The notes below the pieces were generated by a model. The model searched no databases. It was not told where the DNA came from and saw only the letters and a list, made by a program, of their open reading frames with translations. The position numbers and the translations under genes were made by a program. Positions 59,304 to 64,000 of a stretch of 64,000 bases of DNA are shown here, piece after piece. The DNA is from Actinomycetes bacterium. Lineage in GTDB: Bacteria; Actinomycetota; Acidimicrobiia; Acidimicrobiales; Microtrichaceae. The stretch covers positions 186,001 to 250,000 of the forward strand of contig JAAEPF010000025.1 in NCBI GenBank assembly GCA_024222295.1, given 5' to 3'. The first letter of the stretch is position 1; each line of letters starts with the position of its first letter.

Positions 59304-60071
59304 TCAGCGGGGTGTGGCGTCAGAGGCCACGAACGGCGCGGCCTCGCCCCACCAGCCGAGTTCTGCCGGCAACACCGGCAACGACCGGTAGATGTCCACG
59401 TAGCGTTGCTCCTGCACGATGCCGTGGAGCAGCAGCAGCAGGGTCCAGCGCGTATCGACCACTCCCCCGCCATCCGCGATCGCCTCGAGCGATGTCTTCT
59501 CGCCGGTGCGCATGCGCAGGTAGTTGGCGAAACTCACCTCGACGTCGATCAGTGGCGCCTCGTGCGCCGGCTCAGCCGGGTCGGTGTCCTCGGGCCACTC
59601 GTCCACGACACGCCCGAGAGGGCGAAGGCCGTCCTGATAGCGGATGTCACACACGATGCGGCCCACGGGTGACCCGGTCACCGCGAAGCGCAGCCGCGCC
59701 GTGGCATCGGGCACCCGGACCAACTCGTGGAAACCCGGGTGTGGGAGGTCGTCGCGGGGCGGGAGCTCGAGCACCGGATCACCCACCCGTACCTTCACCG
59801 CCTCGACCTCACCTCGCGAAGCCCACGTGGTCGCGCACGGGTCGGTGGGAGCACCGGGGCGCACGAGCGCCCAGGGAGCGGGAGCGTCGTCGAGTGACCA
59901 TTCGGCCAGCCGGCCCTCCTCGAAACGCTGTGAGTGCCGTACCACCTCACCGTCGTCACCGACCGACTCGATGTGCACGGTGCCGGTGGCGTACGTGGGC
60001 GCACTGCCGAGCAGCTCGCCTCCGCCCTGCTGCACCGTCGATTGCTCGGGATTGCGTGCGACGAGACCCAT
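59304..60071 (-). CDS. Hypothetical protein linked to lipoate genes
   Basis: 255 residues, soluble, no signal peptide. HELVRVPDATARLRFAVTG, CDIRYQDGLRPLGRVVDEW and VEVSFANYLRMRTGEKTSLE are the clearest segments; none is a motif I know. GGAGGT lies eight nt before the ATG, and only 6 bp separate it from the LipB-LipA stop, so it is co-transcribed with the lipoate genes. It may act on lipoylation, lipid transfer or regulation; I do not assign a function. Confidence 0.75.
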   Translation of the reverse strand: MGLVARNPEQSTVQQGGGELLGSAPTYATGTVHIESVGDDGEVVRHSQRFEEGRLAEWSLDDAPAPWALVRPGAPTDPCATTWASRGEVEAVKVRVGDPVLELPPRDDLPHPGFHELVRVPDATARLRFAVTGSPVGRIVCDIRYQDGLRPLGRVVDEWPEDTDPAEPAHEAPLIDVEVSFANYLRMRTGEKTSLEAIADGGGVVDTRWTLLLLLHGIVQEQRYVDIYRSLPVLPAELGWWGEAAPFVASDATPR

Positions 60072-60077
60072 TCGTGC

Positions 60078-61799
60078 CTACCTCCGGGCGGCGGAGCCCG
60101 CGTGGTAGCTCGACCGGGTGAAGGGCGACGACTCCACGTGCTCGATACCGAGGCTACGGCCGACCTCGGCGAAGTCCTCGAAGTCCTGTGGTGTCCACCA
60201 GTGCGCCACCGGAAGGTGGTTGGTGGTCGGGCGCAGGTACTGGCCGATGGTCACGATCGACGTACCCACCGCTGCCATGTCGGACAACGCCACCTCGATC
60301 TCGTCGCGGGTCTCGCCCATGCCGACCACAAGTCCTGACTTGGTGCGCAGACCCGCGGCGGCCGAGCGGGCCAACACCGACAGCGAGCGCGCATATCCGG
60401 CGCTGGGGCGCACAGCCCGCTGCAACCTAGCGACGGTCTCGACGTTGTGGTTCATGACGTCGGGCCGCTCGGCAAAGATCAGCTCGAGGGCCTCAGAACG
60501 GCCGCGGCAGTCCGATATCAGCACCTCGACGCCCGTGTCGGGGCATCGCTCACGGATGGCACGGATCGTGGCGGCGATCTGTCCGGCACCCTCGTCGGGG
60601 AGGTCGTCGCGAGCCACCGTGGTGACCACGGCGAAATCGAGGCCCATGCGCTCGACCGCCTCGGCCACACGGCCGGGCTCGGACGCGTCGGGAGCCCCGG
60701 GCTTCCGGGTGTCGACCAGGCAGAAACCACAGGCCCGGGTGCACCTCTCACCGTTGACCATGAAGGTGGCGGTGCCCTCCGACCAGCATTCCGACAGGTT
60801 CGGGCACCCCGCCTCCTCGCACACGGTGACGAGGTCGAGCTCGGACACCGTGCGCTTGGTGCGCATCACGCTGGGGTCATGTCTCACCCGCGCACGCATC
60901 CAGTCGGGCTTCGGCTCGTCGATGGCAACACCGCCGGACACTCCCGCCTCGGCCAGGCGGCCCAGCAAACGCACCGACGTGCCGCCCTTGCGCGCGAGAT
61001 TGGACCCATCTGTGACCTGGCCGGGGCCCTCCCCTCGCGAAAAGGGTGACAGGTCGGAATCGTCACCGCGCCGGGAGCGGCGGACAACCGCTGCGTGGGT
61101 CACGGACTGCGGCTGCCACCGTTGCACGAATGCTTCGGCGAATGCCGAACCCACCTGCTCCAGGGAGACGTCAGCCCCTTCGGCAGCCATGGACGTGACC
61201 CCGAGGTCCTCGATCCCACAGGGCACGATGTGGTCGAACATCGCCATGTCAGGTGCCACATTGAGCGCCACGCCGTGGAGGGTCCGGCCGCGCTCGACCC
61301 GCACACCGATTGCGGCGATCTTCGCTGCCTGCGGCGTCCCCGCACGCATCCACACGCCGGGATACCCGGCCTGACGGCCAGCGGTCAGCCCGAAGCCGGT
61401 CAGCGTGTCCATGAGCGCTTCCTCGAGCAGGCACACCCATCCGACCGAGTCGGGCAACCCCCCGTCGGCTGCGGTACGGCCACTGCGGTCAGGAAGCGCC
61501 ACCAATGGGTAGGCGACAAGCTGGCCGGGGCCGTGGTAGGTCACGTCACCACCGCGGTCGACATCGACCGCGGTGGCGCCGACCGACTCGGGTTCCACCA
61601 GCACGTGTGACCGGTCCGCGTTGCGACCGAGGGTGTAGGTCGGTGGATGCTCCAGCATCAACAGGTGGTCATCCGCCGCGGCATCGGCAGCCAGGCGCGT
61701 GGACGCCACCTCGTGCAGCCCGCGCTGCAGCGCCCACCCGTCTGCGTAGCTGACGGTGCCGAGCCACCTGGTGTGCAGCGGCGCGCCGGTGCCCCGCAG
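60078..61799 (-). CDS. lipBA: Fused octanoyltransferase-lipoyl synthase (LipB-LipA)
   Basis: 573 residues in one frame. Residues about 1-235: LipB, with LEHPPTYTLGR, GDVTYHGPGQLVAYPL, AAKIAAIGVRVERG (catalytic Lys) and IVPCGIEDLGVTS (catalytic Cys). Residues about 275-573: LipA, with CEEAGCPNLSECWSE, CTRACGFCLVDT (radical-SAM C-x3-C-x2-C) and SPFTRSSYHAG (R-S-S-Y). No stop separates them, so a single protein would transfer octanoate to the E2 lipoyl domain and insert sulfur. No ATG/GTG/TTG lies in frame upstream of residue 31 except a CTG at 61799, 7 nt after AGGGGG, so the start is probably CTG. An internal GTG could also yield a separate LipA. Confidence 0.88.
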   Translation of the reverse strand: MRGTGAPLHTRWLGTVSYADGWALQRGLHEVASTRLAADAAADDHLLMLEHPPTYTLGRNADRSHVLVEPESVGATAVDVDRGGDVTYHGPGQLVAYPLVALPDRSGRTAADGGLPDSVGWVCLLEEALMDTLTGFGLTAGRQAGYPGVWMRAGTPQAAKIAAIGVRVERGRTLHGVALNVAPDMAMFDHIVPCGIEDLGVTSMAAEGADVSLEQVGSAFAEAFVQRWQPQSVTHAAVVRRSRRGDDSDLSPFSRGEGPGQVTDGSNLARKGGTSVRLLGRLAEAGVSGGVAIDEPKPDWMRARVRHDPSVMRTKRTVSELDLVTVCEEAGCPNLSECWSEGTATFMVNGERCTRACGFCLVDTRKPGAPDASEPGRVAEAVERMGLDFAVVTTVARDDLPDEGAGQIAATIRAIRERCPDTGVEVLISDCRGRSEALELIFAERPDVMNHNVETVARLQRAVRPSAGYARSLSVLARSAAAGLRTKSGLVVGMGETRDEIEVALSDMAAVGTSIVTIGQYLRPTTNHLPVAHWWTPQDFEDFAEVGRSLGIEHVESSPFTRSSYHAGSAARR

Positions 61800-61837: not shown

Positions 61838-63244
61838 TCAGAACTCGGCACTCCAGTCGCGTGTCTCCATGATGTCGCGGACCCTCGAGAGGAATGCCGC
61901 CGAGTACGCGCCGTCGAAAGCACGGTGGTCCCAGCTCAGTGTGAGTATGCCGACCGGGTGGATCGCAATGGCCTCGTTGCCCTGGCCGTCATCGACCACG
62001 ACCGGCTTGCGGCTCACACCGTCGGTGCTGAGGATCGCAACCTGTGGCTGGTTGATGACAGGTGCCACCAGCAAGGAGCCGAATGCACCGGAGTTGGACA
62101 GTGTGAAGGTGCCGCCGGTGAGCTCGTCGGGGCCGAGCTGCTTGTTGCGTGCACGCACTGCGATGTCGTTGATGTCGTCCGCGATGGCCCGGAGCCGCTT
62201 CTCGTGGGCCTCGCGGACCACCGGCGCGAGCAGGCCTTCGTAGTTGAGGTCCACGGCCACCGAGAGGTTGACCTCGTTGTGCAGGATGATCTCGCCGTCG
62301 CCCATCGAGGCGTTCATGTGCGGGAACTCGCGCATTGCATCGACGACAGCGCGCGCGATGAACGGCAGATAGGTGAGCGAGAAGCCGTTCTCGGCCCTGA
62401 ACGCCTCGCGCATGGGCAAACGTGCTGCCTCGATCGCCGAGTAGTCGACCTCGACGGCGGTGATCACATGTGGCGACGTCGCCTTGGAAGCCACCATCAG
62501 ATCCCCGGTCATCTTGCGGATCCGGTTGAGCGGCTCGGCCACATCACCGGCACCCGGCCGCATCGGGGCGACCTGCGGCGCGGCGGGCTGGGGGCGCTGC
62601 ACCGGCGCGGCCGGCGCAGCGGTGGGCGCCACAGCACGTGCGCCGCCGCCCGAGGCCTTGGCGCCGACGCCTGCATCGATGGCATCGAGTACGTCTTCGC
62701 GGGTGATGCGCCCCCCGACGCCGGTCCCGGTGATGACGTTGGGGTCGAGTCCGTTTTCCTCGACGAGGCGCCTCACCAACGGCGATAGCAGCGCACCGCT
62801 GGCAGCTGGCGTCTCGGCCGCGGCCGGTTGGGGGGCAGCAGCCGGCGCCGAGGCGGGCGCAGGGGCTGGTGCACCAGCCGCAGCGGGCGGTGTGGCGGCT
62901 GGAGCAGGGGGTGGGGCGACCGCTGGGGGCTCGGGGGCGGGCTCCTCCGCCGGCGCGGCGGCGGGCGCGGCAGCGGGCTCCTGCGCCGGCGCGGCAGCGG
63001 GTGCGGCATCACCGCCGCCCATCACGGCGAGCACGGTTCCCACATCGACGGTCTCGCCTTCCTCCACACGAATCTCGCTCAGCACCCCTGAGGCCGGAGC
63101 GGGCACCTCGGTATCGACCTTGTCGGTGGACACCTCGAACAAGGGCTCGTCCTCGTTGACGGTGTCCCCCACCGACTTGAACCAACGGGTGATCGTGCCC
63201 TCGGTGACGGACTCGCCGAGCTGGGGCATCACGATGTCGGACAT
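61838..63244 (-). CDS. sucB: Dihydrolipoamide acyltransferase (E2) of a 2-oxoacid dehydrogenase
   Basis: 468 residues. Lipoyl domain 1-78 with FEVSTDKVDTEVPAP (lipoyl Lys), an Ala/Pro-rich linker about 80-155, peripheral-subunit-binding domain SPLVRRLVEENGLDPNVI, and the catalytic domain from about 230 with SWDHRAFDGAYSA (His and Asp of the active site). It transfers the acyl group to CoA. Single lipoyl domain. The name follows the succinyltransferase type; branched-chain or pyruvate E2 is possible. The lipoate-forming gene lies directly downstream and dihydrolipoyl dehydrogenase directly upstream. Confidence 0.93.
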   Translation of the reverse strand: MSDIVMPQLGESVTEGTITRWFKSVGDTVNEDEPLFEVSTDKVDTEVPAPASGVLSEIRVEEGETVDVGTVLAVMGGGDAAPAAAPAQEPAAAPAAAPAEEPAPEPPAVAPPPAPAATPPAAAGAPAPAPASAPAAAPQPAAAETPAASGALLSPLVRRLVEENGLDPNVITGTGVGGRITREDVLDAIDAGVGAKASGGGARAVAPTAAPAAPVQRPQPAAPQVAPMRPGAGDVAEPLNRIRKMTGDLMVASKATSPHVITAVEVDYSAIEAARLPMREAFRAENGFSLTYLPFIARAVVDAMREFPHMNASMGDGEIILHNEVNLSVAVDLNYEGLLAPVVREAHEKRLRAIADDINDIAVRARNKQLGPDELTGGTFTLSNSGAFGSLLVAPVINQPQVAILSTDGVSRKPVVVDDGQGNEAIAIHPVGILTLSWDHRAFDGAYSAAFLSRVRDIMETRDWSAEF

Positions 63245-63360: not shown

Positions 63361-64000
63361 TCAGTGAAGTGAACGCCCGGTGAGACCCAACACCGTTTCG
63401 CCAAACAATTCCGTGAGCGACGGGTGCGGCTGCACGAACGCCGCCACCTCGTCGACAGTTGCCTCCCAGTTCACCGCCAGGTAGCCGCCACTGAGCTGCT
63501 CGGTCACCCATGGCCCGACCATGTGCACGCCGAGCACCTGTCCGCCGGTCCCGTCGGGGCGCTTCTGCGCCACCACCTTCACGAGTCCGTCGGTCTCACC
63601 GATGATCATCGCCCGGCTGTTGGCCGCGAAGCGGTGCTTCGAGGTCACCACGTCAATCCCGGCGTCCTTGGCGGACTGCTCCGAATGCCCCGCGAAGGCG
63701 ACCTCGGGATTGCAGTAGATCGCCCACGGCACCCGCGAGTTGTCGACCGGTGAGGGGCCCTCACCGAGGACGTCCTTGACCGCCGAGATCGCCTCGGCAA
63801 ATCCCACGTGTGCAAGCTGCGGGGTGTCGATTGCATCGCCGATTGCCCAAACCGACGGCTCGCCAGTGCGGTACGCGTCGTCGACCTCGACGAATCCGCG
63901 CTCACCCACGACCACTCCCGTGCCGGCCGCGAGAAGGCCGGTTGTGTAGGGCGCCCGGCCGACCGACACCACCACGAGGTTGGCATCGATGGTCTCACCT
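63361..64000 (-). CDS. lpd: Dihydrolipoyl dehydrogenase (E3), N-terminus beyond window
   Basis: About 213 residues of the C-terminal part, running open off the right edge. ETIDANLVVVSVGRAP (NAD domain end), SVWAIGDAIDTPQLAH (FAD GD motif), then the dimerisation domain with VPWAIYCNPEVAFAGHSE and AFVQPHPSLTELFGETVL, carrying the H-P-x-L-x-E-x-x-x-E active-site His-Glu of E3. It reoxidises dihydrolipoamide with NAD. Promoter-like AT-rich sequence sits between it and sucB (63300-63345), so sucB may also have its own promoter. Confidence 0.93.
   Translation of the reverse strand, partial: GETIDANLVVVSVGRAPYTTGLLAAGTGVVVGERGFVEVDDAYRTGEPSVWAIGDAIDTPQLAHVGFAEAISAVKDVLGEGPSPVDNSRVPWAIYCNPEVAFAGHSEQSAKDAGIDVVTSKHRFAANSRAMIIGETDGLVKVVAQKRPDGTGGQVLGVHMVGPWVTEQLSGGYLAVNWEATVDEVAAFVQPHPSLTELFGETVLGLTGRSLH

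Follow-up and report, generated by a model that had tools for sequence, protein, structure and literature searches.

Does one gene in the 64,000-nucleotide stretch of DNA analysed here (the window) encode both an octanoyltransferase, LipB, and a lipoyl synthase, LipA, when the standard pathway assigns octanoyl transfer and sulfur insertion to different enzymes? The gene lies on the minus strand at positions 60078–61799 and reads as a single stop-free frame, 573 codons long and closed by a TAG stop (60078–60080), giving a protein with a computed mass of 61.0 kDa. Position, length and open frame are thus as originally predicted; the strand, which the prediction had left unstated, is minus, and a plus-strand reading of 60078–61799 was discarded as stops are present on that strand. 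The explanation that we regard as highly probable is a bifunctional octanoyltransferase/lipoyl synthase produced by loss of the stop between neighbouring genes in an acidimicrobiial ancestor and kept since. A first search covered 61 genomes, that of the window plus 60 relatives, and 56 of them, the window's own included, gave a match. Detailed reading covered 75 loci (L001–L045 and L064–L093), with a second search of 30 genomes that gave two matches, the loci of which were fetched; the 73 fused proteins from these loci form the basis of most counts below.

The two domains of the fusion protein

The first residue of the fusion is specified by a CTG codon (61797–61799, minus strand). This is probably the start codon, since two relatives (L006 and L007) carry GTG at the ungapped position matching it and the sequence AAGGGGG sits 7 bases upstream of it. 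No ATG, GTG or TTG occurs in the fusion frame before a GTG at 61709, initiation at which would leave the protein without the first LipB strand, and 38 bases lie between the end of the preceding E2 gene (61838) and the CTG. A CTG start is unusual and was counted against the preferred explanation.

The LipB octanoyltransferase domain comprises residues 8–228 (61116–61778, minus strand; PF21948, TIGR00214). Pfam LplA-B_cat matched residues 18–224 over its domain cut-off, and the protein exceeded the curated cut-offs of NCBIfam lipB TIGR00214 (135.9 vs 83.55 bits) and PRK14345 (191.4 vs 155 bits), while those of the other LipB models PRK14341, 14342 and 14343 were not reached. The Cys/Lys dyad (Cys194 and Lys160) is present, with both residues found in 73/73 aligned fused proteins; according to the available text of PMC9307952, LipB uses this dyad to form a thioester on Cys before transfer to the lipoyl lysine. 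The LipA lipoyl synthase domain follows at residues 297–573 (60081–60911, minus strand), with a TIGR00510 (NCBIfam lipA) score of 324 bits against a curated cut-off of 310.25 and a Pfam Radical_SAM match at residues 351–505 over the domain cut-off. All six cluster cysteines (CX4CX5C and CX3CX2C) are present in 73/73 fused proteins, and 72/73 have the Arg and the two Ser of RSSY, the remaining one having a gap; the window protein itself has RSSY. RSSH replaces RSSY in 11/73 proteins (L005, L007, L015, L016, L020, L021, L023, L024, L067, L068 and L093). In the part of PMC13232139 available, the motif is given as R-S-S-(Y/F/H), so that His is allowed at the Tyr position, a position studied in Escherichia coli LipA, and LipA chemistry is described as involving two SAM-derived radicals and the consumption of an auxiliary cluster in each turnover.

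An AlphaFold2 model built on 16 sequences (mean pLDDT 74.1, pTM 0.77) shows two folded domains joined by a disordered tether. Foldseek placed the LipB half of the model close to Mycobacterium tuberculosis LipB 1w66 (TMt 0.85) and the LipA half close to M. tuberculosis LipA 5exk_A (TMt 0.82). None of the 50 Foldseek matches listed was a PDB structure long enough to cover both halves, and a sequence search of PDB chains returned eight distinct sequences, each matching a single half. Both complete motif sets were found in one frame, in agreement with the original prediction of a single two-domain polypeptide, and these motifs suggest that both steps could be carried out by one chain.

The linker and alternative readings of the product

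The two domains are separated in the alignment by 68 residues (229–296; 60912–61115, minus strand), a linker longer than the roughly 40 residues first proposed. In the model, residues 231–277 have a pLDDT below 50 and a helix is present at 273–284. Across the 73 fused proteins the linker ranges from 25 to 172 residues (median 55), six being of just 25–30 residues, and its mean pairwise identity (0.35) is below that of LipB (0.51) and LipA (0.64); some linkers (L066, L067 and L074) contain short repeats. A recurring motif, DLSPFSRGEGPG, lies at residues 249–260 of the window protein (61020–61055, minus strand) and follows in relatives the pattern D[LM]xxF[ST]R, found in 45/73 linkers, with F[ST]RGxGPG in 27/73; an RLxxAGV patch stands just before LipA in 53/73. 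D[LM]xxF[ST]R was found in none of 66 non-fused or cut frames, the cut frame L092 having a close variant. An inserted repeat as the origin of the linker was rejected, the motif recurring as part of the protein in the linkers of relatives.

The recurring motif admits a more specific reading of the fusion, in which the DLxxFSRGEGPG segment docks the protein to the E2 core or to one of its own two domains, so that the octanoylated domain would be handed from LipB to LipA without release. We regard this as unlikely; if true, two-step lipoylation would become a single encounter on an on-site machine.

A second reading, which we consider improbable, is that the gene gives two products, the full-length fusion and a separate LipA made by internal initiation in the linker, which would supply extra capacity for sulfur insertion. 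Such a need is conceivable in that each LipA uses up its auxiliary cluster per turnover (PMC13232139, available part), and in the window genome a GTG at 60972–60974 stands at plausible spacing behind AAGGGCGG and could start a separate LipA. A start-like linker codon with a purine-rich stretch upstream was found in 33/73 loci, and such start-like codons made up 44/213 in linkers against 311/2159 in domains (p 0.02, with related sequences treated as independent). The excess in linkers is small, however, and the window GTG is not conserved, the Val codon of TSVRL being GTG in 6, GTC in 10 and GTT in 2 of 18 sequences. A conserved internal LipA start was accordingly rejected on the lack of conservation of the window codon, with the small linker excess remaining.

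Still less probable is cleavage of a full-length translation product within the exposed linker, giving separate working enzymes for which the fusion merely fixes production at 1:1. The variability of the linker and its disorder in the model of the window protein are compatible with such a cut, but conservation of the kind expected at a cleavage site was not seen, the recurring motif being present in only 45 of the 73 linkers, and six linkers offer just 25–30 residues.

Conservation and distribution of the joined frame

The two halves were joined in one frame across the junction in 56/56 matching genomes, that of the window and 55 relatives. In 41 of these the match was uninterrupted, and in 15 it consisted of pieces in one frame or was broken away from the junction by a contig end or a shift of frame; for G033 and G052 the joining was taken from equal open-frame lengths only. 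At the level of individual loci both halves shared one stop-free frame in 73/75, the other two (L080 and L092) being cut by contig ends, with each frame already running from one half into the other. A wider search of the class gave a match in 275/296 genomes, and all of the best matches listed were free of stops. That an assembly or sequencing error deleted the stop between two ordinary genes, for which the draft state of the window genome (115 contigs) and the often adjacent yet separate lipB and lipA genes of outgroups might speak, retains next to no probability and is refuted by the relatives, since all 55 that gave a match carry this fusion, among them the one-contig assemblies G004, G034 and G038, and by the one open frame of the 73 loci. 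As judged from the sequences, this is an inherited two-in-one gene and not a sequencing error, and chance is excluded, because the joined frame recurs in the 56 genomes and the 73 loci alike; the concern about a frameshift or a missing stop near 61000–61080 that accompanied the original prediction is answered by the same conservation.

A match to the fusion was absent in 5/61 genomes of the first search and in 21/296 genomes of the class; with the count restricted to genomes of 90% or higher completeness and no more than 5% contamination, these figures were 1/39 and 8/210, respectively. Four genomes showed other departures. Frame breaks elsewhere in the fusion gene of G013 and G024 are tentatively read as draft-genome errors. 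In G110, a fused copy is accompanied by a second, more distant copy carrying a stop. In G240, a bin with 6% contamination, a standalone LipB (L111, 570–1220, minus strand) lies beside the fusion remnant L080; on the tree this LipB groups among class members, and it may be a split, a duplicate or a contaminant.

The names on 15 fused loci were Ilumatobacter or Ilumatobacteraceae (5), Acidimicrobiaceae (5), Acidimicrobiales (1) and broad actinobacterial names (4), and from 11 of these 15 we infer that the fused gene belongs to the class Acidimicrobiia. Outside the class no fusion was found in 35 loci (L046–L063 and L094–L110), where the halves were in separate frames in 27 and LipA alone was present in 8. 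The premise that LipB and LipA are normally separate therefore holds for the outgroup loci and fails inside the class, where fusion is the rule. Searches of three phyla, each assessed on the best matches listed and each open to the escape of a divergent fusion matching in two pieces, agreed with this distribution. In the phylum of the window genome (396 genomes, 322 with a match), the listed non-class matches reaching well into LipB carried stops, with the exception of G517 (208–569, no stop), in which more than 440 residues upstream of LipA in frame gave no LipB match (L094). The match of G552 (234–571) reached only residue 234, its LipB being in another frame (L109). In the phylum of the Ramlibacter genome of L056, by inference Pseudomonadota (397 genomes, 395 with a match), and in that of the genome of L055, Dormiibacterota (301 genomes, 254 with a match), the spanning matches listed all carried stops. 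Long open frames containing LipA occur in another actinobacterial family at L101 (314–2401, minus strand) and L110 (668–2122, plus strand). The approximately 200–400 residues upstream of LipA there, which may be a real extension or merely open frame, matched no NCBIfam or Pfam domain, and for this reason the two loci were not called fusions.

Trees of each half were computed by a quick method from the loci read (L001–L113, of which L113 gave no match and L112, which repeats L080, was left out), with LipA matches below 100 bits and LipB matches below 60 bits dropped. In the LipA tree the 74 fused rows of 109 made up one side of a branch with an SH-aLRT value of 92, the single group that one fusion event would be expected to leave. 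By contrast, the tree for LipB, with long branches and weak forks, required four changes and did not place the fused rows in a single group. These counts (one change for LipA, four for LipB) were obtained with L080 and L092 labelled as fused, because in both the frame has entered the second half before the contig stops, and with L111 kept as separate; with L080 and L092 labelled as separate they become two and five. On the explanation preferred here, the stop between neighbouring lipB and lipA genes would have been lost in an ancestor of the class Acidimicrobiia and the fusion retained.

Gene neighbourhood, likely substrates and comparison with known systems

Directly upstream of the fusion, and presumably co-transcribed with it, is the gene for an E2, a dihydrolipoamide acyltransferase of the 2-oxoglutarate dehydrogenase type (61838–63244, minus strand; PF00364, PF02817 and PF00198), which scored 429.2 against 423.45 bits for SucB_Actino (TIGR02927). 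This is preceded by an E3, dihydrolipoyl dehydrogenase, that runs off the window (63361–64000, minus strand) and has TIGR01350 as its best match; the fragment reaches 189.6 bits against a full-length cut-off of 408.8 because it is cut by the window end, and on the extended contig E3 is a 466-aa open frame (L113, 862–2262). The placement beside E2 and E3 genes had been correctly anticipated. An E2 stands directly upstream in 65/73 fused loci. Among the eight loci without an adjacent E2, five have fewer than 500 bases available upstream, and the other three (L073, L086 and L088, with 606–813 bases) showed no E2 match next to the fusion. An upstream E3 was found in 14 fused loci, all but one of which belong to the 15 named loci. 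On the other side, a 255-aa protein (59304–60071, minus strand) that reached the cut-off of neither a Pfam nor an NCBIfam family follows the fusion in 20/73 loci, all in the window's own family, f1.

The original suggestion that the assembly could work directly on the adjoining E2 is not supported where it implies a dedicated enzyme. The window genome (97.31% complete) contains a single match to the whole fusion protein and one gene over the LipA cut-off, a second radical-SAM match reaching 30.7 against 310.25 bits, and its glycine-cleavage H protein, GcvH, is encoded on another contig, so that lipoylation by the fusion probably extends beyond the neighbouring E2 to unlinked targets. Five Biotin_lipoyl domains were found in this genome, one being the window E2 and one, by its reading frame, a biotin carboxylase-type protein. 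A second LplA-B_cat protein (C51; Pfam 27.5 bits, cut-off 27), which reached no NCBIfam ligase or LipB cut-off, is the one further candidate seen and may be a ligase-like relative.

In the mechanism that we propose, acyl carrier protein would donate octanoate to Cys194 of the LipB half, with Lys160 as partner, and the octanoyl group would pass from there to a lipoyl-domain lysine in E2 or GcvH, after which the radical-SAM LipA half would insert two sulfurs into it. The flexible tether would prevent the two sites from moving far from one and the same lipoyl domain, probably raising the local concentration, and channelling in the strict sense may be absent. The position of the gene behind E2 and E3 would keep the enzyme near its main client. 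Hassan and Cronan reportedly found in 2011 that E. coli LipB and LipA copurify with 2-oxoacid dehydrogenases, an association that the fusion would make permanent. A natural fusion present across a class lends itself to testing whether LipB and LipA cooperate on a single lipoyl domain. It could also be used as a lipoylation module encoded by one gene, and at the gene level it is a candidate marker for Acidimicrobiia. Annotation by the best-scoring family alone would conceal one of the two activities that the protein probably has.

Among the open-licence PubMed Central titles and abstract beginnings in the matches listed, no description of a natural LipB-LipA fusion was found, and the NCBIfam matches of the window protein included no model for one. 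The nearest NCBIfam design is NF053790, LplA_LipA_fuse (bifunctional lipoate-protein ligase/lipoyl synthase), in which an attachment enzyme likewise precedes LipA. Its N-terminal half is by name a ligase, whereas that of the window fusion is LipB, and the window protein falls outside this family (340.4 against the required 800 bits, covering only positions 332–604 of the 606 in the profile); NF053790 thus looks like a parallel design. Lipoate-assembly genes have also fused in the Lpl(AB)/Lpl(BA) ligases, which, unlike the present protein, join the catalytic and accessory domains of a ligase and not a transferase and a lipoyl synthase; the available part of PMC10332631, which describes them, makes no mention of a LipB-LipA fusion. 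M. tuberculosis LipB (1w66) and LipA (5exk) share the two folds and the catalytic residues of the fusion. In outgroup loci with both halves, lipB and lipA are found close together, within one short stretch. The separate LipB and LipA known from Actinomycetota are two polypeptides, whereas here a variable tether joins them into one. Ligase-LipA fusions are already modelled in NF053790, and what appears to be new is a class-wide fusion of two known enzymes, LipB and LipA.
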